DNA of 64,000 nt, taken from a virus. The notes under the pieces were generated by a model. The model made no database searches and was not told the DNA's origin. It saw only the letters and a list, made by a program, of their open reading frames with translations. The position numbers and the translations under genes are program-made. Below, piece by piece: positions 3,627 through 39,012 of the stretch. The DNA lies in IMG/VR virus record IMGVR_UViG_3300008952_000002, positions 124,001 through 188,000 of that record. One strand, written 5' to 3'. Each line of letters opens with the position of its first letter. The stretch's first letter is position 1.

Positions 3627-5252
3627 TTACTTATTACGTTTGTGACTCACATTAGTAACTTTCTTCAGTAGAGGTCCCTTTTTTACAGCCAGTTTATATG
3701 TGGATTGCCCTGCTCTCGGCTGAAAATATAAAGACACCAATACATCTTTTGGATTATTGATATCATAAACTTTAAATCCTACGTTACCCGCGTTTGTCTT
3801 ATATTCCCCGACATCAAAATCTATATCTTTAAGTAGTTTATATAAGTTTTTAAAAGAATGGACACTATAATCGCCGGTTGCCTTAAAATCAACTAACTCT
3901 ACATTATCTTCTCTGGCTGCATGATATTCAACAAAGTTTACCAGTGCTTGTATAAAATCGTATTCTGATTGTGAATCATCGTTTTTAAGCCAAATTTGTT
4001 TAATATTGTTCGCAACTGCGCTGAACATTTTTTGTATACCGGGCCGAACCTTTTTCTGGCTAGCTTGTAATTGGCTGTTTATTGCCTTTTCGATTTGATT
4101 AGAATCCATATCACTAGTGATACCAATGGAATTTAAATACTCTTCTTTTGAAAGTATATTTTCAACATTGATATAGTTTGTACCATCGTCAAACCCTTTC
4201 CATAAAGTTATCAAATTGTTCCACAAATGATCTTTTAGTTTTTCTGCTGTTAGGTTTCCTTGTGGTTTACCAACAAGTGCTTGTTGTCCAATATCTGGAT
4301 TAGTGGCTTTTAATGAAAGATTTGCATATCTAAGTTTTTTTCCGTTAGCAACTATAAATAGGTCTGCTTTAGTACCTCCTCCAGACTGCAAGGAAGCGGC
4401 ACCACCTATACCGTCGGTATCTACTATAATCTCATCAACTTTGAGATTCGTTGCAAAAAATCTAGAGTATTGCGTCATTAATCGAGAATTAGCATAATTT
4501 GCAACTGCCCCAAGCAAGCCTAATAGTTTTGGATTATCTAAATGCTTCCCTTCTCCAATCGCTACTAGTTCCCTAAAAGCCTGTTCTTGAGTTTTAATTC
4601 TCCAAACAATTTTATCTTGTAAATTACTTTTATATTCTGCAGAAGCATACACCACGTCTTCTTTGTGTAATTCTTTTGAATTAATTTTTACTTCTTGACT
4701 ACTACTATTATCTACTGTTAATTTTGAAATTATTTTAAGAATGTCTTTAACTTCGATAGGCTGGACTCCGCCTTGTACACGTTTAGTAAATTTTGCTGTT
4801 AAACCTGCACCTGCCAAGGATTCTGTTAAATTACCAAAATTTGCGATTTGATCTTTACTTTTAATACGATGTGGTTCGGCAAATTGATGATCTTTAAAGA
4901 GATTTGAAATTCTATAATTGTCTAATTGTGTATTAGTTTTAGGATCATAAACCGGTACTACCCAAGATTTACCGTCTAGATAGCCATAGAAGGATCCTGA
5001 TTGAATTGACTTTAAAAGTTTACTTTGGCTGGTGGCATTTGCGTATCCAATGTATATATTATAAGGATACGTTCCGGATCTTGCTTTGGGATAATCATAT
5101 TCTTGCCCACCCAAAGTAGGTGCAATTGTGCCGTCCCATGGAATCTTTCCTTTGACGCGATTTAAAAAAACATCCCATCGTTCTTCAGCAGCTTGATGGA
5201 AATCACCAAACGATAAATTTGCTTCAAATAATTTAAATTCATTAAAACGCAT
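3627..5252 (-). CDS. Leader-bearing virion protein with a PD-(D/E)XK-like segment, candidate packaged nuclease
   Basis: A 541-residue minus-strand protein. It opens MRFNEFKLFE-A, matching the T4 capsid-targeting sequence with a prohead-protease-type cut site L-F-E after residue 10. Mid-protein, a glycine-rich turn leads to KADLFIVANGKKLRYANLSL followed by KAT, where D and the LSLK strand fit the D-x(n)-(D/E/S)-x-K layout of restriction-like nucleases; the middle acidic residue is not canonical. If real, this would be a nuclease packed with the DNA and delivered to the host. The late box lies exactly five bases upstream of its ATG. The nuclease call is tentative; the leader call is firmer. Confidence 0.5.
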   Translation of the reverse strand: MRFNEFKLFEANLSFGDFHQAAEERWDVFLNRVKGKIPWDGTIAPTLGGQEYDYPKARSGTYPYNIYIGYANATSQSKLLKSIQSGSFYGYLDGKSWVVPVYDPKTNTQLDNYRISNLFKDHQFAEPHRIKSKDQIANFGNLTESLAGAGLTAKFTKRVQGGVQPIEVKDILKIISKLTVDNSSSQEVKINSKELHKEDVVYASAEYKSNLQDKIVWRIKTQEQAFRELVAIGEGKHLDNPKLLGLLGAVANYANSRLMTQYSRFFATNLKVDEIIVDTDGIGGAASLQSGGGTKADLFIVANGKKLRYANLSLKATNPDIGQQALVGKPQGNLTAEKLKDHLWNNLITLWKGFDDGTNYINVENILSKEEYLNSIGITSDMDSNQIEKAINSQLQASQKKVRPGIQKMFSAVANNIKQIWLKNDDSQSEYDFIQALVNFVEYHAAREDNVELVDFKATGDYSVHSFKNLYKLLKDIDFDVGEYKTNAGNVGFKVYDINNPKDVLVSLYFQPRAGQSTYKLAVKKGPLLKKVTNVSHKRNK

Positions 5253-5257: not shown

Positions 5258-5265
5258 TATTTATG
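5258..5265 (-). promoter_or_regulatory. T4-type late promoter box (leaderless geometry)
   Basis: Minus-strand CATAAATA followed by CAGTT and the ATG of the gene ending at 3627. The predicted start site is the A of ATG 5252. Confidence 0.65.
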
Positions 5266-10571: not shown

Positions 10572-11973
10572 CGTAGATCTACAAAAACTGTATCTTGAAA
10601 TGCTTGTGGCAAATCCGGAAGCATACGTAAGAGTACAGAACATTTTTAATCCGCAAAACTTTGATAGAAGTTTGCGTCCAGTAGCAAAGTTTATAAAAGA
10701 ATATGTGAATGAATATAAATCTTTGCCCGAAATAAAACAAATAAACAGTAAAACAGGTTCTAAATTAAATATTATAGAAGAAGTAGCAGAAGACCACACT
10801 AATTGGTTAATGGATGAGTTTGAAACTTTTAGTAGGCATAAAGAACTTGAGAGAGCAATTTTAGATAGTGCTGATCTATTAGAAAAGGGTGACTACAACC
10901 TAGTTGAGTCTAAAATTAAGAAAGCAGTACAGATTGGTCTTACAAAAGATATGGGTACAGACTATTGGGACAATCCAAGAGAAAGACTACTATCGCTAAA
11001 ATCTAATAACGGACAGTTGAGCACAGGTTGGCCAACGTTTGACAAGAAACTGTTTGGTGGCTTTAACAAGGGCGAGTTAAATATTTTTGCAGGTGGCAGT
11101 GGTAGTGGTAAAAGTTTGTTTATGCAAAACGTAGCAGTTAACTGGGTATTGGCCGGATTAAATGTTTTATATTTTACATTGGAATTAAGCGAAGAACTTA
11201 CAGCAATGCGTATTGACAGTATGATATCTAACATTGCAACAAAAGAAATTTTTAAAGATCTTGATACAGTTGAAATGAAAATTAAGTTAGTATCTAAGAA
11301 GGCGGGTAAATTACAAATTAAGTATATGCCAGCACAAAGTAACATTAATGATTTTCGCAGTTATGTAAAAGAATTAAGTGTGCAAAAGGGTATAAAGCCA
11401 GATGCGATTTTGATTGATTACTTAGATCTGTGTATGCCGGTAAGTGCTAAAGTAGCACCAAGTGATTTGTTTGTTAAAGACAAGTATGTAGCAGAAGAAC
11501 TAAGAAACTTTGCTAAAGAACTAGACACTGTATTAGTTACAGCATCGCAGTTAAACAGAGGTGCTGTGGATGAAATTGAGTTTGATCATTCACATATTGC
11601 AGGCGGTATTAGTAAAGTTAATACAGCAGACAATGTTATTGGTATTTTTACAAGTAGAGCAATGCGTGAGCGTGGAAGATATCAAATACAGTTTATGAAA
11701 ACTAGAAGTAGTAGTGGTGTTGGCCAAAAACTTGATCTAGAATTTGATTTGGAAAGTTTACGTATTAGAGATCTGGGAGAAGATGCACAGTCATATCAAA
11801 ATGATGAAAGCACAGAATATACACCAGCAGGATCCCAAACAGACATATTCAACAAAATTAACAGAAGTGCAACAGTCAGTAGTGCAGGTGATGCTCCCAA
11901 AGTTACAGCAGAAGCAAGTGGTAGTAAAATTCGTTCTCTACTCAGCAACATGCGAAACAACGAGGAATTATAA
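10555..11973 (+). CDS. 41: Replicative DNA helicase (DnaB family, T4 gp41 type)
   Basis: A 472-residue hexameric 5'-3' helicase for the phage replisome. After a helical N-terminal domain comes the RecA-like core with Walker A AGGSGSGKSLF near residues 178-188, a Walker B-type strand DAILIDYLDL, and the TASQLNRGA motif. The C-terminal ~50 residues are low-complexity. The gene starts within the last codons of the primase gene (17-base overlap), so both are probably read from the promoter at 9553. Confidence 0.92.
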   Translation: MNKEYNVDLQKLYLEMLVANPEAYVRVQNIFNPQNFDRSLRPVAKFIKEYVNEYKSLPEIKQINSKTGSKLNIIEEVAEDHTNWLMDEFETFSRHKELERAILDSADLLEKGDYNLVESKIKKAVQIGLTKDMGTDYWDNPRERLLSLKSNNGQLSTGWPTFDKKLFGGFNKGELNIFAGGSGSGKSLFMQNVAVNWVLAGLNVLYFTLELSEELTAMRIDSMISNIATKEIFKDLDTVEMKIKLVSKKAGKLQIKYMPAQSNINDFRSYVKELSVQKGIKPDAILIDYLDLCMPVSAKVAPSDLFVKDKYVAEELRNFAKELDTVLVTASQLNRGAVDEIEFDHSHIAGGISKVNTADNVIGIFTSRAMRERGRYQIQFMKTRSSSGVGQKLDLEFDLESLRIRDLGEDAQSYQNDESTEYTPAGSQTDIFNKINRSATVSSAGDAPKVTAEASGSKIRSLLSNMRNNEEL

Positions 11974-11976
11974 ATA
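11969..11976 (+). promoter_or_regulatory. Consensus late promoter (TATAAATA)
   Basis: A perfect box spanning the helicase stop codon, serving the gene at 12006 with a ~24-base leader that contains ACAGGA. Confidence 0.65.
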
Positions 11977-12005
11977 GTATAAACAACCTAACAGGAATTT
12001 ATACT

Positions 12006-12494: not shown

Positions 12495-12507
12495 TAGTGG
12501 AAATTTA

Positions 12508-12515
12508 ACTAAATA
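12508..12515 (+). promoter_or_regulatory. Possible late promoter box (ACTAAATA)
   Basis: Six of eight bases match TATAAATA; it would give a ~15-base leader to ATG 12536. Confidence 0.35.
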
Positions 12516-12535
12516 TATACAGAGTGTATATTAAT

Positions 12536-12790
12536 ATGAAACGTAAAACTAGAACTATACTTGAAGAATTGAATTCTCTATATAGCGAGAAAAATAAGAG
12601 TGCGATTATTGAAAGTCGCGCTATACATATCATTGACAGTGCAGTAAATCTTATTAATAATATTTATGAAAACTATGACCATGCTACTGCTTCTGAACTA
12701 GAAAGACGACTTCTTAATAGTATACGCGGACAAGATAATAAAAAATTTGTGCGTAGTATTCGCAAGGCGGGCGACAGTGAAACTGAGTGA
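12536..12790 (+). CDS. Conserved small phage protein
   Basis: An 84-residue helical protein beginning MKRKTRTILEELNSLY, then HIIDSAVNLINNI and a basic C-terminus with ASELERRLLNSIRGQD. I recall the same layout in T4-like cyanophages, where the function is also unassigned. ATG 12536 was chosen over the upstream ATT-frame codons because it gives the conserved KTRTILEELN start. The next gene begins inside its 3' end. Confidence 0.55.
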   Translation: MKRKTRTILEELNSLYSEKNKSAIIESRAIHIIDSAVNLINNIYENYDHATASELERRLLNSIRGQDNKKFVRSIRKAGDSETE

Positions 12791-13022
12791 AATATCGCCG
12801 TACGTAGACTCAAAAGTTTTAACTAGGCGGCCGCCCCCACGTTATAAAAGATTCCCACCAGGTAAAACAAGTGGTATTGTAGATCAAATGTCCGGCGAAT
12901 TAGAAAACGTTGTAGATGATTGGATTAAAATAGATTGGGACGATGTTGATGAAGCAACTAAAAAACGTTTTAGTGATGCTATAACAGAATTATTGGATAT
13001 TGTTAATAATGAAGATATCTGA
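12777..13022 (+). CDS. Small acidic protein with GTG start and leader-like N-terminus
   Basis: An 81-residue protein if started at GTG 12777, giving (M)KLSEISPYVDSKV. The first residues fit the MKxxE leader seen across this virus, with a possible L-S-E site, but the match is weaker than elsewhere. The rest is proline-rich and basic (RRPPPRYKRFPPGK) and then acidic (DDWIKIDWDDVDE). It overlaps genes on both sides. An ATG start is not available in a sensible position, so the start is inferred. Confidence 0.45.
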   Translation: MKLSEISPYVDSKVLTRRPPPRYKRFPPGKTSGIVDQMSGELENVVDDWIKIDWDDVDEATKKRFSDAITELLDIVNNEDI

Positions 13023-14352
13023 TCTACACGAAGAACGACCAGCAAGAGCAAAACGTCGCAAGGACCGTGCACCACGCAAAGACCGCGAAGGAAATCTTAT
13101 TAACGAATCTAAATGGCTTTTTGAAAAAGAAGACCGCACACATATGACACACCTTGAAGACTTGGTATTTACGCAAGGATACAAAGGCGCTAAACAAGCA
13201 TTAAACTATTTGGCCAACGTTGCTGGTATGCTTTCCGGACACGGAGGCAAACGTACCAAAATAACAACTAAGTGGGATGGTGCTCCTGCTATTGTTGCTG
13301 GCACTGATCCAAAGGACGGTAAGTTTTTTGTAGCAACAAAGCACGGCTTTTTTAATAAAAATCCTAAATTAAACAAAACACCTAAAGATATTGACAAGAA
13401 CCATTCTGATGCTGGTTTAGAAAAAGGTAAGACAAGAGCAGGCCTGCGTAATAAGTTTAAGATGGCTTTAAAAGAATTGCCAAAATTAAACTTTGATGGC
13501 ATACTGCATGGCGACTTTATGTTTGCTAAAGGTGATTTAAAAACAGTAACTATTGAAGGGGAAAAATATATTGCTTTTAGACCACAAGAAATTACATATG
13601 CTGTCCCTGTCGGCAGTGAATTAGCACAGCAATTACTGGCCGCAGACTTTGGTATAGTATGGCATACGCAATATACTGGCGGGCCTGAGATTAGTGACAT
13701 GCAAACACAATATGGTGTAATAGCACCAGAAGGTAACAAAAAAGTTTGGATGGATGATGCTACGTATAAAGATTTAACAGGCGTTGCTACATTAACTGCA
13801 AGAGAAACAGATTCTGTAAGGCGCGGTGTTGAGAAGATGAGTGATATTTTATCTAAAACAAATGCCTCAAAATTCAACACAATGTTGAAAAATGAAGAGT
13901 TTATGAAATATATTCCCATCTTTATTAACGAAAAGATTCGCCAAGGAGAAGGACAAGTATCCAATGCTACAAATTTCTTGCAAGACTTTATTAACTATTA
14001 TGATGATCGTATGCAAGCCGAAATTGATAAACTAAAAACTGGTATTGAAGGGCCTGCAGGACAGGCGCGTGTACAAAAAATAGAAGCAAACAAACAGTTT
14101 ATCGAAGATAACAGTAATACATTATTAGCAATACTTGGCATATATAAACAAATCGTACAGATTAAAATGATCTTAGTAAACAAATTAAACAAAGTAGAAG
14201 GTATTGGAACATTTTATAAAACAGATGGCGGCTACGAGGTAGCAGACCCCGAGGGTTTTGTAGCAATTGATAGAATAGGTAATGCCGTAAAATTAGTAGA
14301 TAGAATGGAGTTTTCAAGAAGAAACTTTTTAAGTCAAAAGGAGTGGGGTTGA
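13009..14352 (+). CDS. Ligase-like nucleotidyltransferase (DUF6267-like) with capsid-targeting-type leader
   Basis: A 447-residue protein opening MKISDLHE-E, a capsid-targeting-type leader with an L-H-E cut site. After the motif THMTHLED it has TKWDGAPA, with K88-W-D90-G91 matching the K-x-D-G nucleotidyl-acceptor motif of ATP-dependent DNA/RNA ligases and capping enzymes, then DGILHGDFMFAKGD resembling a later ligase motif. Homologues that I recall from cyanophages are annotated DUF6267. It could seal or modify nucleic acid, possibly as a packaged protein. ATG 13009 overlaps the upstream gene; the downstream gene starts on its stop codon. Confidence 0.6.
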   Translation: MKISDLHEERPARAKRRKDRAPRKDREGNLINESKWLFEKEDRTHMTHLEDLVFTQGYKGAKQALNYLANVAGMLSGHGGKRTKITTKWDGAPAIVAGTDPKDGKFFVATKHGFFNKNPKLNKTPKDIDKNHSDAGLEKGKTRAGLRNKFKMALKELPKLNFDGILHGDFMFAKGDLKTVTIEGEKYIAFRPQEITYAVPVGSELAQQLLAADFGIVWHTQYTGGPEISDMQTQYGVIAPEGNKKVWMDDATYKDLTGVATLTARETDSVRRGVEKMSDILSKTNASKFNTMLKNEEFMKYIPIFINEKIRQGEGQVSNATNFLQDFINYYDDRMQAEIDKLKTGIEGPAGQARVQKIEANKQFIEDNSNTLLAILGIYKQIVQIKMILVNKLNKVEGIGTFYKTDGGYEVADPEGFVAIDRIGNAVKLVDRMEFSRRNFLSQKEWG

Positions 14353-15041
14353 TGGGTTTTATTAAAGATTTAACAGAAGCACGAGCACTACGCACCCAGC
14401 GTGGTTTGAATCTTAGTGCTGAACAAGTGGCAGAAAGTATTTACTTGACGGTATTATCATTGCAGGCAATGCGATTTGATCCCAGCACAGCCGCGCAGGC
14501 ATCAGAATATGCTAGAAAAACTTTGCAATATCAAGATTTCAGTAATATTAGATCAACAGCAACAGATTTACACAACTGGGTAGCTGTTTTTAGTAATCCA
14601 GAAAGATACGCAAATCAAATTGGCCCAGTTGGTAGGGCAAGTATGCCTTTATTACAATTTAAAAGGTATCTCAGAGATGTGGCACAAGGTAAGGCTAATC
14701 CGAACTTCGACAAACAATTTTTAATGAGTTTAGAGCGTAATTTAGGTATTAGAAATGGGCAGTATAGTGCTGTAAGAAGATTGTTAAGTGATTGGAATAG
14801 ATTATATGGTACTGAGCGCAAGCAAGGTACTACTAGATTGTTACAGGCATTGAGGGCCAAAACACCTAAAAGTGATTTACGCGGCCCATATGAAGGATTT
14901 ATGCGTAAGGGTGGATATGAAGATAAAAGTGCTAAAGATCCAGAAAAAACAGGCATTAGTACACCAGCAAAAATTGCACTAGCGACAGCCGGTGGTTATG
15001 TGGTAGGCAAAGGAATAGGAAAGTGGCTAGCCAATAAATAA
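14352..15041 (+). CDS. Leader-bearing virion-associated protein
   Basis: A 229-residue protein opening MGFIKDLTE-A, which fits a capsid-targeting leader with an L-T-E site after residue 9. The mature part is basic and helical (ARALRTQRGLNLSAEQVAE...), and near the C-terminus there is a glycine-rich hydrophobic segment, KIALATAGGYVVGKGIG. The start ATG 14352 overlaps the upstream TGA. Likely an internal head protein with the preceding ligase-like gene; function unknown. Confidence 0.55.
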   Translation: MGFIKDLTEARALRTQRGLNLSAEQVAESIYLTVLSLQAMRFDPSTAAQASEYARKTLQYQDFSNIRSTATDLHNWVAVFSNPERYANQIGPVGRASMPLLQFKRYLRDVAQGKANPNFDKQFLMSLERNLGIRNGQYSAVRRLLSDWNRLYGTERKQGTTRLLQALRAKTPKSDLRGPYEGFMRKGGYEDKSAKDPEKTGISTPAKIALATAGGYVVGKGIGKWLANK

Positions 15042-15080
15042 TATGCAATGAAATAGCGTAGTTTATTTTTTCTAATTAGA

Positions 15081-15113
15081 TATAAATAATATTAACGGTA
15101 TAGAGAAATCTAT
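15081..15113 (+). promoter_or_regulatory. Consensus late promoter with 5'-terminal leader hairpin
   Basis: TATAAATA at 15081-15088 predicts transcription from about 15094. The RNA would then begin with the hairpin TATAGA-GAAA-TCTATA (15098-15113), a GAAA-tetraloop stem that could protect the 5' end. Confidence 0.65.
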
Positions 15114-15141
15114 ACATTACAAGATATAGGAGATTAGAAAA

Positions 15142-15471
15142 ATGGCAGGTTATACAAATCCAGCTTATTCAACAGCACAAGATAATTCAGAGTACGCAGG
15201 TGTTCGTGACATTACATGGGTATGTTCAACAGGTGGCGACTTTACAACAGATACAGATGCACAACTAGCACTAGAAGCAATTGCACAGCACGGTACAGTT
15301 GAGTTCGTAGGCACAGTTACAGCCGCTGGCTTCGTAGTAGGTCTTTCAGGCGCACACGCTCACATTGCAGCCGGTTCAGGCGCAGTATGGACAGCACTAG
15401 AAGCACGTCTAGACGCAATTGCCGCACAAACACTAAGTGTCAAAACAATCACAGGTGTTAGCTTAGCTTAA
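15142..15471 (+). CDS. Small abundant-type virion protein
   Basis: A 109-residue protein with an ATAGGAG ribosome binding site, a consensus late promoter, a stabilising leader hairpin and a strong terminator 54 bases downstream: the layout of a highly expressed single gene. The sequence starts MAGYTNPAYSTAQDNSEYAG and then has alternating strands (GTVEFVGTVTAAGFVVGLSG) and a terminal helix and strand. It resembles small head-decoration or tail proteins of marine T4-like phages. It pairs with the similarly organised gene at 15610. Confidence 0.55.
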   Translation: MAGYTNPAYSTAQDNSEYAGVRDITWVCSTGGDFTTDTDAQLALEAIAQHGTVEFVGTVTAAGFVVGLSGAHAHIAAGSGAVWTALEARLDAIAAQTLSVKTITGVSLA

Positions 15472-15524
15472 TTATTAGCGTAAAATCACAGTTTTTAGCA
15501 TTGCTAGAAACAAATGATTCCAAG

Positions 15525-15558
15525 AAAAGCGGGATAGAAATATCCCGCTTTTTTATTT
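15525..15558 (+). terminator. Rho-independent terminator
   Basis: Perfect 12-bp stem AAAAGCGGGATA with its complement around a GAAA loop, followed by a T-run. Confidence 0.92.
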
Positions 15559-15570
15559 TGTATTTTTGTA

Positions 15571-15578
15571 TATAAATA
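15571..15578 (+). promoter_or_regulatory. Consensus late promoter (TATAAATA)
   Basis: Predicted start near 15584; the leader to ATG 15610 carries TTAGGAG. Confidence 0.7.
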
Positions 15579-15609
15579 AAGATAACAACGCTAGATTAGG
15601 AGATTTAAA

Positions 15610-15981
15610 ATGGCTTCAGTAACAAGAACAGTACCTGCATCATTTGGTCTTAGCACCAATTTTCTAGGTAAAACATTAGCACACTTAGATATTGATTTTG
15701 GCGCAGATGTTTCAGGAAAGCTAGGCCCAACATCAGCAGTAGCAGCCGCCATGGATGCAATTCAAGGCGCAGGCTTTAACATTGTAATTATTGGCGCACT
15801 ACATAGTGCAGACAACAATATTTCAGTTTGTGTCGAGGGTGAATACGGTACAGACACATATGATGGCTCAGCCAGTGAAACATTGGCCGCTCACTTAGAA
15901 GATGTTTTAATTGCTTTGGGTACAGTTGATTCTGTAAACTTTGCATCAGCAACAGTAACAGCAAAAACATACGTTCTATAA
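15610..15981 (+). CDS. Small abundant-type virion protein, second unit
   Basis: A 123-residue protein with its own late promoter, AGGAG ribosome binding site and perfect terminator, organised exactly like the gene before it. The sequence is small-residue-rich with strands NIVIIGALHSADNNISVCVEG and a C-terminal strand pair (SVNFASATVTAKTYVL). This isolated, heavily expressed layout suggests a capsid decoration or other high-copy virion protein. No enzymatic motif is present. Confidence 0.5.
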   Translation: MASVTRTVPASFGLSTNFLGKTLAHLDIDFGADVSGKLGPTSAVAAAMDAIQGAGFNIVIIGALHSADNNISVCVEGEYGTDTYDGSASETLAAHLEDVLIALGTVDSVNFASATVTAKTYVL

Positions 15982-16004
15982 TTTAATATATTATATAATA
16001 AAAC

Positions 16005-16034
16005 AGCGGAATGGTAACATTCCGCTTTTTATTT
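16005..16034 (+). terminator. Rho-independent terminator
   Basis: Perfect 9-bp stem AGCGGAATG / CATTCCGCT with loop GTAA, followed by TTTTT. Confidence 0.92.
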
Positions 16035-16035
16035 G

Positions 16036-16081
16036 GCTAAATAATCTATACTAAATATAATAGTAGCATATTATAGGTATA
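16036..16081 (+). promoter_or_regulatory. Weak late-like box plus long leader hairpin
   Basis: GCTAAATA (16036-16043) is followed by a two-part inverted repeat: TATAC (16047-16051) with GTATA (16077-16081), enclosing TATAATA (16056-16062) and TATTATA (16069-16075). The ATG follows four bases after the hairpin, and no Shine-Dalgarno sequence is visible. Confidence 0.5.
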
Positions 16082-16084
16082 CAA

Positions 16085-16636
16085 ATGGCAAGAGAAAAAG
16101 GATTAGCCGCCGGCGGCAGATTTGGTTCAGGTGTTGGTGAGTTTTTGACAATACATACTTTAATTGATATATCACAAACTGGCCTTGTAGCACAATACAG
16201 ACCTGACGCCCCTGCTTTTGTAGATGACATTAATCAATTGGTTAATAATGAAAAGTCTTGGAATAAAAGTAGAGGACAACAAAGTAATTTAGAAACTTTA
16301 ATTCAAACTATTAGTTTACGCGGCAATCCTATGTATATCGAAAAACCCCAAAAATATTCAGTAGACGACATCAAAGCTTTAAATTTTGGATCTTCATTTA
16401 AAGGAAAACATGTTTTTTGGACTACTTCCTTTACTGTTGAACAACCTGGATTATATCTAGAGCGAGGCGAAGAAGCCATACCTGCATCTGGATTAATGAA
16501 AGATCTAACAAACGTTCCAGTTATTTTAAATTTAACAGAAACTGCTAAAATAAAAACCCCCGTTTGGAATGCTTTAAACCCTAAAATTAAAAACATTTAT
16601 ATTACTTCCTCCGATAAACTATTAGTTAATTTCTAG
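16085..16636 (+). CDS. Conserved T4-like phage hypothetical protein
   Basis: A 183-residue protein beginning MAREKGLAAGGRFGSGVGEF. It has mixed strands and helices with a repeated strand near KHVFWTTSFTVEQPGLYL and a C-terminus KNIYITSSDKLLVNF. I recognise no catalytic motif. Translation initiation must proceed without a visible Shine-Dalgarno sequence, directly downstream of an AT-rich hairpin. Its position after two virion genes suggests a structural or assembly role. Confidence 0.45.
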   Translation: MAREKGLAAGGRFGSGVGEFLTIHTLIDISQTGLVAQYRPDAPAFVDDINQLVNNEKSWNKSRGQQSNLETLIQTISLRGNPMYIEKPQKYSVDDIKALNFGSSFKGKHVFWTTSFTVEQPGLYLERGEEAIPASGLMKDLTNVPVILNLTETAKIKTPVWNALNPKIKNIYITSSDKLLVNF

Positions 16637-16763
16637 AAATTTTTGAGTAAATACAGTACTAGGCAAAGACTTAGGCTCATTTTAGGCGAAATGAAGAGGC
16701 ATATAAAAGGCACATATAATACAGGGCGGGCGGTAGGCATTATTACACATTTTAGGAGTTGTT

Positions 16764-17012
16764 ATGCCATCAGAAATTGAAAGGCAGAGCCTTGAGGCAC
16801 ACGTTGAGATTTGCTCAGAGAGATACGGGTACCTGGAGGAGAATATGGAACGAATCGAAAGTCGTTTGACTGTCATTGAACAGCAACTCGATGAGATTAG
16901 GCATAACTTGCTAGTCCAAGAAAAAAACAAATACAAATCTATGTGGGTCCTTAGTGGCTCCATTATCACCGCACTATTTTCAGCATTGATCTATCTATTA
17001 ACCATTCAATAA
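16764..17012 (+). CDS. Coiled-coil protein with C-terminal membrane anchor (possible holin/XhlA-like)
   Basis: An 82-residue protein with a TTTAGGAG ribosome binding site. Residues ~5-55 form a coiled coil (YLEENMERIESRLTVIEQQL), and residues ~60-81 are one transmembrane helix (MWVLSGSIITALFSALIYLL). Short coiled-coil plus C-terminal helix proteins such as XhlA act in phage lysis, but they can also be general membrane anchors. No lysozyme is adjacent; the endolysin-like gene is at 20774. The lysis role is a guess. Confidence 0.5.
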   Translation: MPSEIERQSLEAHVEICSERYGYLEENMERIESRLTVIEQQLDEIRHNLLVQEKNKYKSMWVLSGSIITALFSALIYLLTIQ

Positions 17013-17024
17013 TAAGTATCGTAT

Positions 17025-18254
17025 ATGAATTACGAAGAATATCGTAGCACTTCAAAGTGGACGAAGGGATTTTGGGATCCTGAATTATCAGCTTTATCTA
17101 AACCGCCGTTATTTCCAGAAGGTGAAGACTTTTCAGGTCCAAATAATATATACGGTTATGAGATTTATAATAATTATATATTAAATCCTTCACGAACTTA
17201 TGAGTTTGATTTTTTTGAGTACGATAAAAAAATAATAAATCCGTATTGGAAAGGCAAAACAGTCAAGTATACCTTAAATGCACACGGATATCGCGGTCCT
17301 AGCTTTAATTCAGATGCAAAATTAAAAATAGTAACCATTGGATGCAGTCACGCATTTGGTTTAGGAATAGACGATAGTAGCACTTGGGCAGAACAACTCA
17401 AAAAATTAATATCTGCTCAATTTAATACCAATGACGTTGAAGTTTTTAACCTTGGTACACCTGGTGCTAGTTCAGATTTAAATACAGTACAATTATATCA
17501 ATTAATTGATATTATAAAACCAAATATTGTGCTGTGGGTACCTCCGGCCTGGAGAAGGTATGATATAGGAATCAATTCGTTACTATCAATAAATTCTGAA
17601 TTTATTGATTTATTTGAAAATGTAATTGAACACGGCACATACACATTGGTGCCGGGTGAAGAATTTTTAGCAATTTACAACAGGGCTGTTATAGATTACG
17701 CAAACACCGGTAGTCTTGATATACAAACACGATATCAAAACTTTTGTAAGAATTTTTCGATAGTTCGTGATTTGTGTGAATATAACAATATAATATTTTA
17801 TTCCTTTGCTAATTTTCAACAGTTTAATGGGTTATTTACTGAATTATGCAAGGCGTATACCTGTTCGTCTGGTATACGGAATTTAATGTATTACCTTAAA
17901 TTTATTAATACACGAGAATATGTTTTAGACAAAGACAACAGATCGTTTATAAATGTCATTGCCCAAGAAGAGGCTATGATGGATTACTTAGTAATTAAAA
18001 CACAAAAAAATGTTATTGGGTATGATTCTAGAAATTTAAAAAAAGCAATGGTGAAAATATATAAAGGTATAACTAGCGGATTATACGACGATTATTTTGA
18101 AGGCGTTGACTCTAACTGCAAACTTCCAAATATGCATCTTAAACTTCTTGCAAGAGACAGCGCCCATAATGGTGATTTTTTTAGTTTTGTTCTTGCTAAC
18201 GTATCTTACAGTGTAATTGAAAAAGACGTAGCAAAATTACTAAATACATTATAA
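17025..18254 (+). CDS. SGNH/GDSL-hydrolase-like protein (1 of 3)
   Basis: A 409-residue protein with SGNH-type blocks: a nucleophile strand VTIGCSHAFGLGIDD, a glycine block VFNLGTPGASSDLN, and a late ARDSAHNGD segment that may hold the catalytic Asp-His. SGNH hydrolases deacylate or deacetylate glycans and lipids; phage versions can act on host surface polysaccharide or decorate a virion. The long N-terminal region (FDPELSALSKPPLFPEG-type) is specific to this protein. It starts 12 bases after the membrane gene and ends overlapping the next gene by one base (TAATG). Confidence 0.65.
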   Translation: MNYEEYRSTSKWTKGFWDPELSALSKPPLFPEGEDFSGPNNIYGYEIYNNYILNPSRTYEFDFFEYDKKIINPYWKGKTVKYTLNAHGYRGPSFNSDAKLKIVTIGCSHAFGLGIDDSSTWAEQLKKLISAQFNTNDVEVFNLGTPGASSDLNTVQLYQLIDIIKPNIVLWVPPAWRRYDIGINSLLSINSEFIDLFENVIEHGTYTLVPGEEFLAIYNRAVIDYANTGSLDIQTRYQNFCKNFSIVRDLCEYNNIIFYSFANFQQFNGLFTELCKAYTCSSGIRNLMYYLKFINTREYVLDKDNRSFINVIAQEEAMMDYLVIKTQKNVIGYDSRNLKKAMVKIYKGITSGLYDDYFEGVDSNCKLPNMHLKLLARDSAHNGDFFSFVLANVSYSVIEKDVAKLLNTL

Positions 18255-18535
18255 TGTATTTAGAAGAACTCTTTGGCATAAACGAAACAAAAATGGCATG
18301 GCAACGCCAAGGAAATAAATTAGTTCGAAAGTATCGTTGCACCGGCGGCAGAAGAAAAGGACGCATTGTGTCCAAACCTGCCCAATGTTTTGCGGCTCCA
18401 GATATCAAAAAGCGTTTTAAATTACGTATGACTAAAGCAAAGTTAGGAGCAAGAATTGCGAGAAAATCTGCTAGAACAAAAAGAACTAATCCGGCAAGCA
18501 TTATGAAACAACGGTTAAATAAGGCCTCCAAATGA
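18254..18535 (+). CDS. Basic internal-head-type protein with capsid-targeting leader
   Basis: A 93-residue, very basic protein. It opens MYLEELFGINE-T, a capsid-targeting-type leader with an I-N-E site. After cleavage the remainder (MAWQRQGNKLVRKYRCTGG ... RKSARTKRTNPAS) is rich in R and K like DNA-condensing internal proteins, and has two cysteines (RYC... QCF). I recall close relatives in T4-like cyanophages. The small size, charge and leader fit a protein packed with the genome. It overlaps the genes on both sides. Confidence 0.6.
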   Translation: MYLEELFGINETKMAWQRQGNKLVRKYRCTGGRRKGRIVSKPAQCFAAPDIKKRFKLRMTKAKLGARIARKSARTKRTNPASIMKQRLNKASK

Positions 18536-19038
18536 AGCTAGAAGAATTATTTACAGAAGCAGTATATCAAATTTCTGGACCTGTTCGAGGCACAACCTTG
18601 CCGCTGGCTTCTAATGCGGGTGATAGTACAGAGACTAGTATAGATCTTAGAGATAAACGTATTGATCTAGATAATCCCAATGGCCCCACTTTAATGAAGA
18701 AAAAGTCGGAAGCGGAACAAAAACAAATAGTGCGCGGTATGGTGCCGGGCCAACAGTTTACGGTAATACCAAAATTAACAGACGTGGCAGAGCTTTGGTT
18801 TGTAGTATCTAAAAGTCCTTCTCGCGTAGTCGCGACACAAGATCCTAGTGCGGACAATCCCAGTACCAAGGAGTTTCTCATAGCAAATTATTATATTGAT
18901 GACGTCAACCAAGATGGCACGCCCAAGATTAGTTTTGCACAAGAAAGAGGAATCGGAGAAAAGTCTAGAGAAATTAATAAATTAGATAGACGTGATATTC
19001 CATTAAATGTAGAAAGTGTTAGTCTGACCAATAAATAA
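18532..19038 (+). CDS. Leader-bearing virion-associated protein
   Basis: A 168-residue protein starting MKLEELFTE-A, a capsid-targeting-type leader (F-T-E site after residue 9). The body is hydrophilic with strands (QFTVIPKLTDVAELWFVVSK) and charged loops (DLRDKRIDLDNPNGP), with no enzyme motif recognised. It starts inside the stop of the basic protein upstream. Probably co-packaged with its neighbours; exact function unknown. Confidence 0.5.
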   Translation: MKLEELFTEAVYQISGPVRGTTLPLASNAGDSTETSIDLRDKRIDLDNPNGPTLMKKKSEAEQKQIVRGMVPGQQFTVIPKLTDVAELWFVVSKSPSRVVATQDPSADNPSTKEFLIANYYIDDVNQDGTPKISFAQERGIGEKSREINKLDRRDIPLNVESVSLTNK

Positions 19039-19047
19039 GAAAAAATA

Positions 19048-19230
19048 ATGTTAATAAACGAATTACTTACAGAAGATTTACGTATTCTAGAAAATTTACG
19101 TAAATGGTATGACGAGCAGTATAGTAAAGGTAAAGCAGAACTCGTTACAAAACAAAACGCCACACCCAATCATAAATCAATTAATGAAAGACTTATTCCT
19201 TATAGTTTACATGGGCGGATCATGCGGTGA
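19048..19230 (+). CDS. Short leader-bearing protein, possibly truncated
   Basis: A 60-residue protein opening MLINELLTE-D, a clean capsid-targeting-type leader with L-T-E. The segment VTKQNATPNHKS resembles ITKQNATKDAP in the leader-bearing protein at 19782, but the frame then stops after an unrelated C-terminus. This suggests a truncated relative of that gene. Most of its 3' half overlaps the next gene in another frame. It may be a remnant rather than a functional gene. Confidence 0.4.
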   Translation: MLINELLTEDLRILENLRKWYDEQYSKGKAELVTKQNATPNHKSINERLIPYSLHGRIMR

Positions 19231-19774
19231 TCTTATTACTATGCTATATGATTCATGCAATGGCAAAATTAATAAGAATAGAATCAGGTCTGATATCAGG
19301 TCTGATTCTAATAGAATCAGGTCTGATTCTAATAGAATCAGGTTATCAAAAGATCGTAGTAGACTTAAAAAACCCCATTTATTTAAAAATAATAGTGAGA
19401 AAGATCATTACCTAATAGAAATTGCAAAATATTATGGTAGTATTCCAAGTCATGATTTGGCCTACCATATTGAACGAAAACACGACTTCATAGGTATTAC
19501 TGTCGATGACTTTGACATAGCAATGTGGGCCGCAGAGCGATTTAAACAGTTACATCGCCCCCACACGTGGGAAGAAATGACCCAAGTATGTGACGCTACA
19601 ACTATAAAACAATATGCAGAAATGTATATACATTTCTCTCACCTAATTAAACAGCACACTGATAATATTATTAAACTAGAAGATATAGTTAATGGAAAGT
19701 TGTTAGATGTTATTGAGATAGAAAGTTATTATCGGAGTATATATACTGCTTGGTTAGCTAACAATAACCTATAA
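19184..19774 (+). CDS. Unknown protein with an expanded basic repeat
   Basis: A 196-residue protein started at ATG 19184, giving MKDLFLIVYMGGSCGDLIT, a hydrophobic strand and glycine-rich loop typical of a nucleotide-binding-like start. Near residues 30-55 a repeat RIRSDSN occurs, produced by 21-bp palindromic DNA repeats at 19277-19342. The helical C-terminal half (HRPHTWEEMTQVCDATTIKQ) is ordinary. An earlier ATG at 19109 would add 25 residues lying in the neighbouring gene. No function recognised. Confidence 0.45.
   Translation: MKDLFLIVYMGGSCGDLITMLYDSCNGKINKNRIRSDIRSDSNRIRSDSNRIRLSKDRSRLKKPHLFKNNSEKDHYLIEIAKYYGSIPSHDLAYHIERKHDFIGITVDDFDIAMWAAERFKQLHRPHTWEEMTQVCDATTIKQYAEMYIHFSHLIKQHTDNIIKLEDIVNGKLLDVIEIESYYRSIYTAWLANNNL
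19277..19342. repeat. Tandem 21-bp palindromic repeat
   Basis: AGAATCAG-GT-CTGATTCT recurs with spacing AATAAT-type linkers; one copy is 19310-19330, and a partly deleted copy precedes it. Each unit is itself an inverted repeat. It could bind a dimeric protein or reflect slippage. Confidence 0.7.
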
Positions 19775-19777
19775 ATA
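19770..19777 (+). promoter_or_regulatory. Consensus late promoter (TATAAATA)
   Basis: A perfect box four bases before ATG 19782; transcription would start at or one base from the start codon. Confidence 0.65.
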
Positions 19778-19781
19778 CAGT

Positions 19782-20315
19782 ATGAAAATTGCAGAATTAA
19801 CTGAAGCAGTAGGCATTATTACAAAACAAAATGCCACAAAAGACGCTCCAATTGGAAGCGAATATGCTAATGTTAAAAAGTTAGGACTTGGTAGCGGAAA
19901 GCCAAAATTACTTACAAACGAAAGCTTTGTTGACGGTAAGCAGTTTCGCGTAACCAAACAAAAAAATGGTTTTACTGTAGATTTATACGTAGACGGTAAA
20001 CACGCAGGACAATATACACATACACGCAACGAAGATAATGTGCGTAACTTTGCAGAAATATTCCCAGAGTTTCGTAATAAAGGACACGGCGGCATGCTAT
20101 TGTTAAAAGCAATAGCCACAGCAGACGAATTAGGTATGGACTTTGAAGAAGATTCACACAGTCTTACACCTGCTATGAGCAGATTATATGATGAACTAGA
20201 TGGCTCAGGTTTAATTTATGGTGGCGATGGTGCTTGGGCAATTAGTCCAACTGGTGAAGATGCTCTAGACGAATACCTAAGCGAGAACTTTAACATGAAA
20301 GGCGGTAAGAAATGA
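19782..20315 (+). CDS. GNAT-like protein with capsid-targeting leader, candidate injected acetyltransferase
   Basis: A 177-residue protein opening MKIAELTE-A, with the L-T-E cut site at residue 8. The C-terminal ~90 residues have GNAT-like features: the acetyl-CoA loop FPEFRNKGHGGMLLLKAI (R-x-x-G-x-G type) followed by a helix and a strand typical of the fold. A packaged acetyltransferase would be comparable in logic to T4 Alt, an enzyme delivered with the DNA. The GNAT call is moderate because the substrate region is short. A late promoter sits four bases upstream, and the stop overlaps the next ATG. Confidence 0.5.
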   Translation: MKIAELTEAVGIITKQNATKDAPIGSEYANVKKLGLGSGKPKLLTNESFVDGKQFRVTKQKNGFTVDLYVDGKHAGQYTHTRNEDNVRNFAEIFPEFRNKGHGGMLLLKAIATADELGMDFEEDSHSLTPAMSRLYDELDGSGLIYGGDGAWAISPTGEDALDEYLSENFNMKGGKK

Positions 20316-20764
20316 AAATAGCAGAACTGTTTGAAACATTTGACCAACCTTATCCTCTATCATGGACAGGTGAAACGGATGGCTTCCAGGGCCCGGGCCC
20401 CCATGGCGGCATGCGAGCATTTGCCAACTTACCTGACGACACACCACTGCTTATTATGTTCAATCATGAAGGGAACGGGGAATATCAAGTAGAGTTTCAT
20501 AGAAATCATAGTCAAGATGTATCAGGTGAAGGCGATGCTTATAAAATATTTGCTACAGTTTTACACGCTATAAAAAAGTTTATTAAAGAACGTAGTCCCG
20601 AAATGATATTTTTTTCCGGTGAAAAAGGAGATATAGGCGACAACCCAAGCAGAACAAACCTTTATTCTAGAATGGTACAAAAGTTTGCTAGACAGTTAGG
20701 CTATAACGCATACGTTGAAGACCAAGGCGACATGGTGCAGTATGAGTTGAACAAAATAAATTAG
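20312..20764 (+). CDS. Leader-bearing conserved phage protein
   Basis: A 150-residue protein starting MKIAELFE-T, a capsid-targeting-type leader (L-F-E). The rest has a GEYQVEFHRN strand, a helix AYKIFATVLHAIKKFI and a C-terminus RTNLYSRMVQKFARQLGY that resembles conserved marine phage proteins. A GC-rich tract (GPGPHGG) is unusual for this AT-rich genome. The ATG overlaps the upstream TGA. Function unknown; probable packaged protein. Confidence 0.5.
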   Translation: MKIAELFETFDQPYPLSWTGETDGFQGPGPHGGMRAFANLPDDTPLLIMFNHEGNGEYQVEFHRNHSQDVSGEGDAYKIFATVLHAIKKFIKERSPEMIFFSGEKGDIGDNPSRTNLYSRMVQKFARQLGYNAYVEDQGDMVQYELNKIN

Positions 20765-20773
20765 GAAAAAGAA

Positions 20774-23321: not shown

Positions 23322-23702
23322 ATGCGATTTGCTGAAATTTTAAATTTGACGGAGCAAGGACCTGTAGACGACGACATGGTCGAAGCGTTGATTACCGTAT
23401 TAAATCACGAACTTAAAAGTGCAGATAATTCAGCAGAAATAGGTGATAATGAAATAAGTTTTGTAGAATTAGTTCATACTATGAGAAACTTAGGGCATGT
23501 TATAGATTTTGATGGTTTTAAACAAATTTATGATATGGACCCCGGAGTCCAAAATTTAATTAAAAACTTCGATAAAGATTTCATTACATTAAACACAGAA
23601 GAAGAATTAGAAGTAGATGTTTCGGATGAAGCAAATATTGATGAGCCAAGTCAAAACAAAGTTGACAGTATGGCTAAAAGAGCATTGAAGAAGAGAACAT
23701 AA
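23322..23702 (+). CDS. Leader-bearing acidic protein
   Basis: A 126-residue protein opening MRFAEILNLTE-Q, a capsid-targeting-type leader with L-T-E after residue 11. The rest is acidic (EELEVDVSDEANIDEP) and ends in a basic tail. It follows the core-like gene by one base and precedes a small gene by three bases. Probably an internal or scaffold-associated protein; function unknown. Confidence 0.5.
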   Translation: MRFAEILNLTEQGPVDDDMVEALITVLNHELKSADNSAEIGDNEISFVELVHTMRNLGHVIDFDGFKQIYDMDPGVQNLIKNFDKDFITLNTEEELEVDVSDEANIDEPSQNKVDSMAKRALKKRT

Positions 23703-36962: not shown

Positions 36963-37772
36963 ATGAAAATTTTAGATATTATTAAAGAGAATGATGAACT
37001 CATTATGGAAAGATGGCCGCAAAAAAGTGGTTCCTCGGACGAAACGCAGTCTGGAGGTCTATTGGGCTGGCTTAAAAAGAAGTTTACTACAGACCCAATA
37101 GCAGACAAAATCAGGCACGGGCACAGAGCAAGAAGAGCTCGCGAAGGCGACCCAACTACAAGTGCTGTAGCAAAAACAGATCAAGCATCAACACCAATGG
37201 ATGCAGGTGAGTTTGCTGGTACACCAGGAGCAAAAACAAAGAAAGCACCACTACCAAATACTCCACCACCTGGAACAGCAGTAGCGGCCAAAGGACCAAA
37301 TACTCCACCACCTGGAACAGCAGTAGCGGTCAAATTACCAAATACTCCGCCACCTGGAACAGCAGTAGCAAAAACAGATCAAGAAGCCTATGCGGGAGAT
37401 CCAAGTGCGGTACAAGACGCAGGATCCGGCGATCAAGAAGCCTATGCGGGAGATCCAAGTGTATTGGACGATACTATTGCTCGTATCAAGGCTAATGCCG
37501 GTATGAAAGACAGCGAATATAAAACGTCCCAAGGTTCTAAGAGAACGGCGCGAGATATGGCTTTAGATAAACAATATCCTTATAAGGCACCTGATGGTAG
37601 ACGTCTAAAATACCCACACGGTGATCTTAGAAACTTGTTTGAACCATCACCTGATACACGTAAAGCAGGTTCAGATGTTGTTGTAAGAGATGGTAAACGT
37701 AAGAAATCCTGGAAAAATCCAAATACTTCAACATCTCAAAACGCTTTTCGAAGTGACGACGATAGAAAATAA
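36963..37772 (+). CDS. Leader-bearing, repeat-rich basic protein
   Basis: A 269-residue protein opening MKILDIIKE-N, a capsid-targeting-type leader with an I-K-E site. It contains three copies of a 14-residue NTPPPGTAVA-type repeat, two DQEAYAGDPS repeats and a block TPMDAGEFAGTP shared with the next gene. The proline/alanine repeats look like flexible linkers; the C-terminus is basic (KRKKSWKNPNTS). Probably an internal head protein evolving by repeat gain. Confidence 0.55.
   Translation: MKILDIIKENDELIMERWPQKSGSSDETQSGGLLGWLKKKFTTDPIADKIRHGHRARRAREGDPTTSAVAKTDQASTPMDAGEFAGTPGAKTKKAPLPNTPPPGTAVAAKGPNTPPPGTAVAVKLPNTPPPGTAVAKTDQEAYAGDPSAVQDAGSGDQEAYAGDPSVLDDTIARIKANAGMKDSEYKTSQGSKRTARDMALDKQYPYKAPDGRRLKYPHGDLRNLFEPSPDTRKAGSDVVVRDGKRKKSWKNPNTSTSQNAFRSDDDRK
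37190..37227 (+). repeat. 38-bp block shared with 38021-38058
   Basis: Identical 38-base segments in two adjacent genes encode TPMDAGEFAGTP, evidence of local duplication or recombination. Confidence 0.8.
37254..37373 (+). repeat. 42-bp tandem repeats (three copies)
   Basis: Copies begin at 37254, 37296 and 37338 and encode NTPPPGTAVA-type units. Confidence 0.85.
37377..37461 (+). repeat. Two direct 31-bp repeats with 54-bp period
   Basis: Identical 31-base segments at 37377-37407 and 37431-37461 encode DQEAYAGDPS. Confidence 0.8.
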
Positions 37773-37784
37773 GGAATAATTATT

Positions 37785-38414
37785 ATGAGAATTGATGAAT
37801 TCGTATTTGGCAAAAAAAACACATCAGACGCAACTGCTAAAGTGAAGCAATATGTTCAGAAAAATAAAGCAGAATTAAATAAAGGACAAGATGAAAAAGT
37901 AGGAGGCACAATTGGTAAAATTGCCGCAGGCTCACTAGCAAGAGATACAAATGTTGCCGCCCAAAGAGAAAGAAATGTTGGCTTAGACGCATTTGGCGGA
38001 ACGGGCGCTGATAAAACACCAACACCAATGGATGCAGGTGAGTTTGCTGGTACACCAGTAGCAAAAGCAAAGAAATCAGCTATAGTTAACAAAAATGTTA
38101 AAGCAGGACAAACTGCTGACGCCGCCGGCGAATTTGGTAGTGCAAAAGCAAAAACAAGCACACCAAAAAGAGCAAGAAGCGTACTACCACGTGCTTCAAC
38201 TTCAAGCGTAGCAGGTACTGCAACAAGCACACCAAAAAGAGCAAGAAGCGTACTACCACGTGCTTCAACTTCAAGCGTAGCAGGTACTGCAACAAGCAAA
38301 GCTGCCCAAGATAAGTTTAACCAAAGACAACCAAAATCTGTTGCAAAGAAAACGAAAAAGCCTAGTGGTACAATAGGTGATATGAGTGATGAGATGTTAA
38401 ACGCTAGAAAGTAA
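37785..38414 (+). CDS. Basic repeat-rich protein with leader-like N-terminus
   Basis: A 209-residue protein beginning MRIDEFVFGKKN, a weaker match to the leader family (R-I-D-E). It carries the shared TPMDAGEFAGTP block and a tandem 23-residue repeat containing KRARSVLPRASTS, produced by a 69-bp DNA duplication. The strong basic charge suits DNA binding inside the head. AAGGAA serves as a ribosome binding site. Function unknown. Confidence 0.45.
   Translation: MRIDEFVFGKKNTSDATAKVKQYVQKNKAELNKGQDEKVGGTIGKIAAGSLARDTNVAAQRERNVGLDAFGGTGADKTPTPMDAGEFAGTPVAKAKKSAIVNKNVKAGQTADAAGEFGSAKAKTSTPKRARSVLPRASTSSVAGTATSTPKRARSVLPRASTSSVAGTATSKAAQDKFNQRQPKSVAKKTKKPSGTIGDMSDEMLNARK
38021..38058 (+). repeat. 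38-bp block shared with 37190-37227
   Basis: Second copy of the direct repeat shared by the two adjacent leader-type genes. Confidence 0.8.
38154..38291 (+). repeat. 69-bp tandem duplication
   Basis: Two consecutive near-identical 69-base units (starts 38154 and 38223) encode the 23-residue KRARSVLPRASTS-containing repeat. Confidence 0.85.
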
Positions 38415-38415
38415 A

Positions 38416-39012
38416 ATGAAAATTACAGACATACTACAAGAAAGCAAAGCAGCCGAAAAAGCAAAACAGGCAATTCTTAAGCGACAAGTTAAATTATTTA
38501 ATAAATTAATTGATAAAGCTGGCGAACTTGAAGAAAAAGGCAAGGTAGCAGACGCCGAAGAGTTAAACAACCAAGCCACTGAAGTAAATGATAAATTTAT
38601 TAAACAAACTGGTATGTCTATTCCTGATTATGAAACACAACAGACCAAAGCAGGCCGTGATGTTAGTGATATGATTAGTCGAATTAAAACAACAAACCTA
38701 AAACCAGGCAAAAGTCCTGCATTAATTTCAAAAGAAGCCGGCGCTACTGCGTTATTACTTCATATTTTAAGAGACGTAGTAGGGCAATTTGATGATGATG
38801 TTGCTAATCTACTGTCAGGCTTCTTATCATCCTCCAAAGCAAATCCACCAACAGCGGACCAAGTAGCCGTTGCTAGAGCAGTGGCAGATAGAGTTAAAGA
38901 ACTTGGCATTGCCAAGGATTATGCTAGTAAAACTGTTGGTAAATTAGAAAAGCATAGTCGCGCATATGACTATGATAAAAATAATCCTTCAGACTTCCGA
39001 GACAAGTATTAA
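38416..39012 (+). CDS. Leader-bearing helical protein
   Basis: A 198-residue protein opening MKITDILQE-S, a capsid-targeting-type leader with an L-Q-E site. The body is mostly helical (AAEKAKQAILKRQVKLFNKL, DQVAVARAVADRVKELG). It starts one base after the preceding stop and ends convergently against the gene at 39009. Part of the same block of likely packaged proteins; no family recognised. Confidence 0.5.
   Translation: MKITDILQESKAAEKAKQAILKRQVKLFNKLIDKAGELEEKGKVADAEELNNQATEVNDKFIKQTGMSIPDYETQQTKAGRDVSDMISRIKTTNLKPGKSPALISKEAGATALLLHILRDVVGQFDDDVANLLSGFLSSSKANPPTADQVAVARAVADRVKELGIAKDYASKTVGKLEKHSRAYDYDKNNPSDFRDKY

Follow-up and report, generated by a model that had tools for sequence, protein, structure and literature searches.

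What do enzyme-like proteins do behind an N-terminus of the kind that, in phage T4, draws proteins into the head? The question is raised by a 64,000-base stretch of DNA (bases 124001-188000 of the 201,690-base virus record IMGVR_UViG_3300008952_000002, hereafter the window), for which a preliminary description had assigned such leaders to a ligase-like, a nuclease-like and a GNAT-like protein and had read them as packaged enzymes. The ligase-like protein, 447 residues encoded at 13009..14352 on the + strand, belongs to the DUF6267 family, and we propose, at a probability of about 60%, that DUF6267 is an RNA-ligase-like enzyme that is packaged in the head, trimmed by protease and injected. A prohead protease of family S77, T4 gp21 type, is encoded in the same record (G000 74066-74485, E 1.5e-26), as are homologues of the major head protein gp23 (E 2e-99) and of the gp55-type late sigma factor (E 1.9e-14). 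No near match to 10555-21610 was found among 50,697 phage records, and we take the source phage to be a T4-like myovirus outside the named groups; judged from its relatives, its habitat is probably marine.

Residues 44-444 of the ligase-like protein match PF19782 (DUF6267) at E 6e-94, with 315.9 bits against a curated cut-off of 27, and PHROGs assigns it to PHROG 455, a family of unknown function. Of 50,697 phage records searched, 414 contain the family (402 of these bear the names Synechococcus, Cyanophage or Prochlorococcus), and viral contigs contribute at least 590 matching stretches. Pfam, PHROGs, NCBIfam and PADLOC returned no functional name for this protein, for the nuclease-like protein or for the adjoining leader proteins. 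The K-x-D-G reported earlier at residues 88-91 is there, as K-W-D-G (13270..13281, +), a motif I with a putative nucleotidylated lysine. An alignment of 69 DUF6267 proteins shows no exception to K88, D90 or G91, nor to W89, G168, D169, E415, G416, V418, K428 and R432. Those from E415 onward belong to E415-G-x-V418 and K428-L-V-D-R432 (14251..14304, +), motifs IV and V. Motifs of the covalent nucleotidyltransferase (ligase/capping) superfamily, namely the KxDG lysine, EGxV and a downstream motif V lysine, are thus found in the protein.

The AlphaFold model (predicted local distance difference test, pLDDT, 85.7; predicted template modelling score 0.80) is good from about residue 50 onward. When 998 of Foldseek's top chains were aligned to it with VIA-align, ranks 1 to 23 were all RNA or tRNA ligases (Z 8.7-7.0, 165-221 residues aligned), including NgrRnl of Naegleria (8.7), TbREL1 (7.7), T4 Rnl2 (7.3), T4 Rnl1 and fungal Trl1 (7.2 each), with DNA ligases at a Z of about 6. 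Three results weigh on the other side: a Z of 7-9 is within the range reachable by unrelated folds, Foldseek alone found no match in the PDB better than E 0.08, and profile comparison of DUF6267 with T4 RnlB (hhalign) found nothing. Pfam RNA-ligase families did not match the protein at E 1, and the DUF6267 profile retrieved no ligase from PDB sequences, just weak matches in its helical part. Since Foldseek was not significant and sequence methods yielded no ligase, the link to RNA ligases is a fold-and-motif assignment. Model and motifs nevertheless make a strong case, for the enzyme part, that DUF6267 is a covalent nucleotidyltransferase of RNA-ligase fold.

With Rnl1, Rnl2, Rnl5 (NgrRnl), REL1 and Trl1, DUF6267 shares a KxDG-type motif I, motifs IV and V and the fold of the catalytic domain; it shows no detectable sequence homology to them, carries a packaging leader, has helices inserted ahead of motif IV and ends shortly behind motif V. 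In the model the helical stretch, about 130 residues (264-393), separates the strands that follow motif III from motif IV; past motif V the chain soon stops, with no further domain. We know of no other ligase so arranged. These features would also suit an enzyme that is packaged but modifies a host protein or RNA by AMPylation or capping, as Alt does by ADP-ribosylation, and such a role would agree with the frequent presence of cytidylyltransferase genes nearby and with a 591-residue protein of S-PM2, named cytidyltransferase-like in BFVD, whose match to the DUF6267 model spans 415 columns. However, the nearest folds are all end-sealing ligases, and a nuclease-like gene recurs as partner (see below), so that a modifying enzyme seems to us somewhat unlikely, and end sealing the better guess.

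We then considered how the protein begins. The open reading frame (ORF) starts MKISDLHEE, and a removable leader of 39 residues is predicted (13009..13125, +), with candidate cuts, marked here by an arrow, at LHE↓E (residue 8) and LFE↓K (residue 39), the second within W36-L37-F38-E39. Residues 1-15 and 32-43 of the model have a pLDDT below 50, and E39 is almost invariant among the 69 aligned proteins. Leaders were counted in 75 relatives drawn from the window protein's 80 best matches, a choice by which the sample leans to close kin; locus L019 is the window's own contig, and four of 79 loci (L028, L035, L088, L092) were dropped for an open end or lack of an ATG. Hydrophobic-x-E stands directly N-terminal of the DUF6267 domain in 72 of the 75, with L or I at P3 in 67 of these 72 and A, S or G at P1' in 54. 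Cultured phages with a leader on DUF6267 include Pelagibacter phage HTVC008M and Methylophilales phage Melnitz.

In the T4 record, IPII and IPIII start MKTYQEFIAEA. According to a review of work on the T4 head, mapping of the IPIII leader placed targeting at residues 4 and 7 and processing at residues 8 and 10, and Asp at residue 10 inhibited processing but not targeting (PMC9026906). The corresponding pattern (aromatic at 4 and 7, I or L at 8, E at 10) recurs in relatives of DUF6267: among the 41 with E10, position 4 is aromatic in 32 and position 7 in 39 (with H counted as aromatic at 7), and the F/Y/W background within the domain is 9.1%. A clade of 18 relatives starting MFSFKGF... (loci between L073 and L306) has both aromatics in 18 of 18 and E10 in none; given the IPIII mapping data, these proteins could be targeted but left untrimmed at that place. 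To judge from its sequences, the DUF6267 leader resembles the capsid-targeting sequence of IPII and IPIII, and packaging of the family appears well supported. The window protein itself is a less convincing example, its leader being long and atypical and the lysine at P1' of LFE↓K being found in just 2 of 72 relatives.

Some members of the family have no leader at all. In 22 of 30 leaderless cyanophage proteins the start reads MAKNTHLEH or MSKNTHLEH (M-AKNTH in 13, M-SKNTH in 9), and AKNT is also the most frequent sequence after the predicted cut in leader-bearing relatives, so that trimmed and leaderless DUF6267 would share one N-terminal end. A tree was built from 162 sequences, reduced to 148 by merging identical domains (two of 80 loci, L242 and L243, were not entered, and the label "degenerate" rests on length only for L078 and S-CRM01). 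On it the three leader states require 5 changes, against 50.6 in shuffles, and the leader is gained or lost as one unit ahead of an unchanged domain start. The leaderless cyanophage clade occupies 36 of the 148 rows; this is a point against our proposal as a general rule, and packaging of DUF6267 is consequently not universal.

Does such a leader tell what a virion contains? A profile of 10 columns was made from the 69 DUF6267 leaders, T4, S-SM1 and S-CREM2 being kept out of training. Over 236 ORFs of T4 it ranked IPIII and IPII (15.8) and then gp22 (11.2) first, with IPI fifth (8.5). Only two of 204 ORFs of S-SM1 scored 10 or more, the cytidylyltransferase T4-GC190 (15.4) and gp21 (12.0), and both are named among the proteins newly detected in purified S-SM1 virions (PMC3037559). 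In S-CREM2 (215 ORFs) a cytidylyltransferase, a 78-residue protein and an APH/ChoK-like kinase reached 10, and all three belong to the 52-protein virion list (PMC10665884; Fisher P 0.012), two members of which, ORF145 and ORF174, were unmatched among the called ORFs. For the two cyanophages combined, 5 of 5 ORFs scoring at least 10 were thus detected in virions, with N-terminal segments of 30 and 25 residues scored. DUF6267 has no leader in S-SM1, where it is GC71, or in S-CREM2, and the leaderless S-CREM2 protein, gp87, is not among the 52 virion proteins in the list given (PMC10665884), which fits the leader as deciding factor. That the leader predicts virion content in other T4-like phages is well supported, even though one unrelated T4 ORF scores 9.4, Alt, a true packaged enzyme of T4, was missed, and scoring 40 instead of 25 N-terminal residues in S-CREM2 gave 3 detected and 1 undetected ORF at 10 or above.

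By eye, a leader of the same kind is present in two further virion-detected proteins of S-CREM2, a SAM hydrolase (MKDFDSFLEE) and a Cas9-like nuclease (...LRFASFMAE↓A). As a separate observation on gene order, these two, the APH/ChoK-like kinase and two small proteins, all virion-detected and with leader-like N-termini, are clustered at L318:3837-13331. In S-CRM01 (L188:4658-7123), a leader with score 10.8 begins a putative kinase whose gene is two away from DUF6267; detection of a kinase in S-CRM01 virions is cited in PMC10665884.

Alternatively, the N-terminal likeness may be incidental, short amphipathic starts being common in T4-like phages, and the mass spectrometry matches may stem from co-purified abundant proteins. 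The S-CREM2 authors themselves warn that incomplete CsCl separation, and hence co-purification, is not excludable (PMC10665884), and the leader pattern counted below in 11 of 151 ORFs was chosen after leaders had been seen. Chance resemblance would, however, leave it unexplained that a profile trained on none of T4, S-SM1 and S-CREM2 still ranks internal head or virion proteins first, that the agreement with the mapped T4 determinants is position-specific, and that the leader comes and goes as a unit before an unchanged domain start. We hold it to be the least probable of the explanations considered.

In the phage itself, the leader pattern was found in 11 of 151 ORFs called in the window and three further stretches. 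Shuffled N-termini would give 0.57, and of 945 internal segments 6 had it; the excess is inflated because the pattern was written with the leaders already known. Hydrophobic-x-E ends at residues 8-11 in 9 of the 11. The three enzyme-like proteins do start as the preliminary description had it, with MKISDLHEE (ligase-like), MKIAELTE↓A (GNAT-like) and MRFNEFKLFE↓A (nuclease-like), but they score only 2.9, 0.9 and 3.6, respectively, on the leader profile, which speaks against our proposal. L8 and E10 are present in the nuclease-like leader, with an aromatic residue at neither 4 nor 7, and the GNAT-like one has L6-T7-E8. As far as their sequences go, the window leaders are a local variant, M-K/R-hydrophobic-x-E/D-hydrophobic.... 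They find support in E39 of DUF6267, which lies at a homologous position in relatives, in the E↓A cut that the GNAT-like protein has in common with a close relative (MRATEFINE↓AVGI), in the LFE↓A of the nuclease-like protein, in the recurrence of the pattern over the 11 ORFs, and in this phage's gp23, which has L-T-E↓A, like FLTE65↓A of T4 gp23, the point at which T4 gp23 is cut.

The nuclease-like protein (3627..5252, - strand) has LFE↓A at residue 10. As to its PD-(D/E)XK-like label, all 11 aligned proteins keep E144, D297, S313 and K315, but the protein reads S-L-K, with S313, where D/E-x-K is usual. A nuclease identity is reasonable on this sequence evidence. The only named-phage matches were two Desulfovibrio-phage records (21%), and direct comparison with one upstream gene of Melnitz gave no similarity; the link to DUF6267 emerged with profiles only. 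Profile iteration tied the protein to genes directly upstream of DUF6267 (L235, E 8e-20; L249, 4e-16; L295, 2e-14), so its homologues and DUF6267 are gene neighbours elsewhere, whereas in the window 7.8 kb separates the two genes, which lie on opposite strands. Matches to the nuclease pattern numbered 18 in 149 upstream ORFs, 8 in 918 other ORFs and 36 in 2980 shuffles.

The loss of catalytic residues in homologues, which would have argued against active enzymes, was looked for in the ligase-like and the nuclease-like protein, and neither family shows it. This bears on another explanation, in which the leader is a head-assembly propeptide without delivery and its bearers have a structural or scaffold-associated role, their enzyme folds being relics. 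In favour of that explanation, no domain can be recognised in many leader-bearing ORFs, and T4 gp22 has such a site too; relics, on the other hand, are hard to reconcile with catalytic residues invariant in 69 DUF6267 and 11 nuclease-like proteins, or with the leader-bearing proteins of cyanophage virions being mostly enzymes. We judge a propeptide without delivery quite improbable, and the delivery of active enzymes remains our preferred reading.

Directly downstream of DUF6267, a partner protein with leader MGFIKDLTE↓A is encoded at 14352..15041 (+). In three relatives (L034, L046, L061) its homologue and DUF6267 form a single in-frame fusion, and the junctions keep the second protein's leader (DFVNDLMTE↓A, VTGLTE↓S), which is what a polyprotein to be cut by the protease would look like. 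The model match of the S-PM2 protein mentioned above suggests that it is a fusion as well. Near DUF6267, over 75 loci, P-loop kinase motifs were seen in 4, HAD in 4 and cytidylyltransferases in 15; of these, 2, 2 and 8, respectively, have a leader that scores at least 8. Because Pfam identifies the kinases as AAA_33/Zeta_toxin and the HAD proteins as NT5C or weaker, an end-healing role for them is a guess. Such neighbours could nonetheless be pictured as members of a larger kit: T4-like phages of marine bacteria would carry in the head, under one leader, a PD-(D/E)XK-like nuclease, a P-loop kinase, a HAD-type phosphatase, a cytidylyltransferase and an RNA-ligase-fold sealing enzyme, some as polyproteins later cut, and inject them so that host tRNAs or phage ends severed by defences are mended ahead of phage expression. 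We offer this tentatively, as unlikely in its full extent; if true, the leader would be a code from which the injected contents of a T4-like virion could be read genome-wide.

The narrower course of events that we favour is the following. DUF6267 would be made late in infection and drawn into the prohead core by its T4-type capsid-targeting leader, where the gp21-type protease would trim it after (L/I)-x-E. The trimmed protein would be packaged alongside the DNA and delivered into the next host by injection, and there, before phage genes are expressed, it would probably seal nucleic-acid ends, perhaps jointly with the leader-bearing PD-(D/E)XK-like nuclease and other packaged enzymes. Packaging in this phage, injection, RNA as the substrate and end repair are what we infer. 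The packaged-enzyme reading put forward earlier is partly supported, by the ligase-like enzyme, by the match of its leader family to T4 and by the virion proteomes of other phages; its nuclease-like part is reasonable and its GNAT-like part weak.

The likeness to IPI-III and Alt of T4 extends to a leader of about 10 residues with aromatics at 4 and 7 and (I/L)-x-E followed by a small residue, as seen in the relatives, and to the prohead protease and late promoter element present in this phage. The cargo differs, being a ligase-fold nucleotidyltransferase and a nuclease-like protein rather than small basic proteins or an ADP-ribosyltransferase, and so do this phage's leaders, which are shorter or, for DUF6267, longer. 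The T4-like cyanophages S-SM1, S-CREM2 and S-SCSM1 likewise have enzymes in or with their virions, kinases and cytidylyltransferases found by mass spectrometry; cytidylyltransferases adjoin DUF6267 in many phages, and those examined in S-SM1 and S-CREM2 bear leaders. In contrast, DUF6267 itself is leaderless in the cyanophages examined, and the portions of the virion papers cited here name no targeting signal for the enzymes. Polyvalent proteins (Iyer et al. 2017, PMC5512222) are injected multidomain phage enzymes too, with GNAT, ADP-ribosyltransferase and ParB-like nuclease themes, but the abstract of that article builds its case on domain architecture and genomic context rather than on a leader, and "cyanophage", "Synechococcus" and "capsid target" are not mentioned in the main text. 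A literature search over titles and abstract starts found no publication on DUF6267 or phrog455 and none that we recognised as describing this cargo or leader. Packaged enzymes in T4-like phages are already known; the DUF6267 cargo, its nuclease partner and the predictive use of the leader appear to be new. If our proposal is true, DUF6267 turns from a common hypothetical protein into an injected RNA-ligase-like enzyme open to testing, and the injected proteome of T4-like phages can be predicted from a short leader; both would bear on the ways in which phages withstand tRNA cleavage and restriction at DNA entry.

Late promoter elements were also looked at. The sequence TATAAATA, the T4 late promoter core, heads at 11969..11976 (+) the gene run 12006-15041 that contains DUF6267, and is repeated at 19770..19777 (+), 4 nt ahead of the GNAT-like start; CATAAATA lies at 5258..5265 (-), 5 nt ahead of the nuclease-like start. 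It is the placement alone that stands out: TATAAATA precedes an ORF start by 55 nt or less in 21 of 26 cases, compared with 208 of 1607 for permuted 8-mers, while its count in the window (17 vs 13.2) is not above chance. The position of these elements ahead of leader genes would mean late expression, as suits virion proteins. Directly before DUF6267 in relatives, the test did not separate leader-bearing genes from background: the element preceded 9 of 85 genes with a cut site, 8 of 18 with a degenerate leader, 0 of 31 leaderless ones and 92 of 835 other ORFs.

The GNAT-like protein (19782..20315, +) starts with MKIAELTE↓A and continues with an ITKQNATKD module. R98-N-K-G-H-G provides the residues of motif A; the Acetyltransf_1 match, however, has 15 bits against a Pfam cut-off of 20.7 (E 0.03), and the AlphaFold model is unusable (pLDDT 45.8), so that the label given earlier is weak. 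The full-length query found no match among named phages at E 1e-3. In 73 of 80 viral-contig loci that match the protein, the match covers no more than part of its first 80 residues, which hold the module (VGIITKQNATKD...KKLGLGSGKPK; 19809..19913, +). About 35 residues long, [IV]TKQNATKD[AVS]P[IV]G...NVKKL, it usually comes directly after E-A(A)GVG and sits at the start, middle or end of unrelated proteins of other viral contigs (loci L104-L178), with one copy in this phage. Ten module proteins were examined with Pfam, and their other domains include cytidylyltransferase-like, NT5C, zeta-toxin-type kinase, ParB-like nuclease and chitinase. This distribution suggests that packaged polyproteins use the module as a movable spacer or as a sorting element. 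Two near kin of the GNAT-like protein, L104:3983-5032 and L105:3983-5032, run into a further domain, which in L104 matches a ParB-like nuclease (PF08857, E 5e-5).

Other leader-bearing ORFs of the window, all on the + strand, encode proteins of unknown function at 18532..19038 (MKLEELFTE↓A, profile score 12.7) and 23322..23702 (MRFAEILNLTE↓Q), a DUF6934 protein at 20312..20764 (MKIAELFE↓T), and three successive leader-type proteins at 36963..39012 (starts at 36963, 37785 and 38416). Directly 3' of the leader genes, at 20774-21610, is a phage lysozyme (PF00959) with a long N-terminal extension. Elsewhere in the window, a phage-encoded tmRNA was seen at 47815-48136, with the tag ANDDYYDYALAA. 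By eye, the ORFs 941-1546, 49380-49967 and 61390-62034 have a GNG-type start and a Y-G-C region in common and are possibly three copies of one family, and radical-SAM-like CxxxCxxC motifs are present in at least five ORFs (5268-6581, 7796-9538, 27164-28678, 43831-44898 and 62003-63346).

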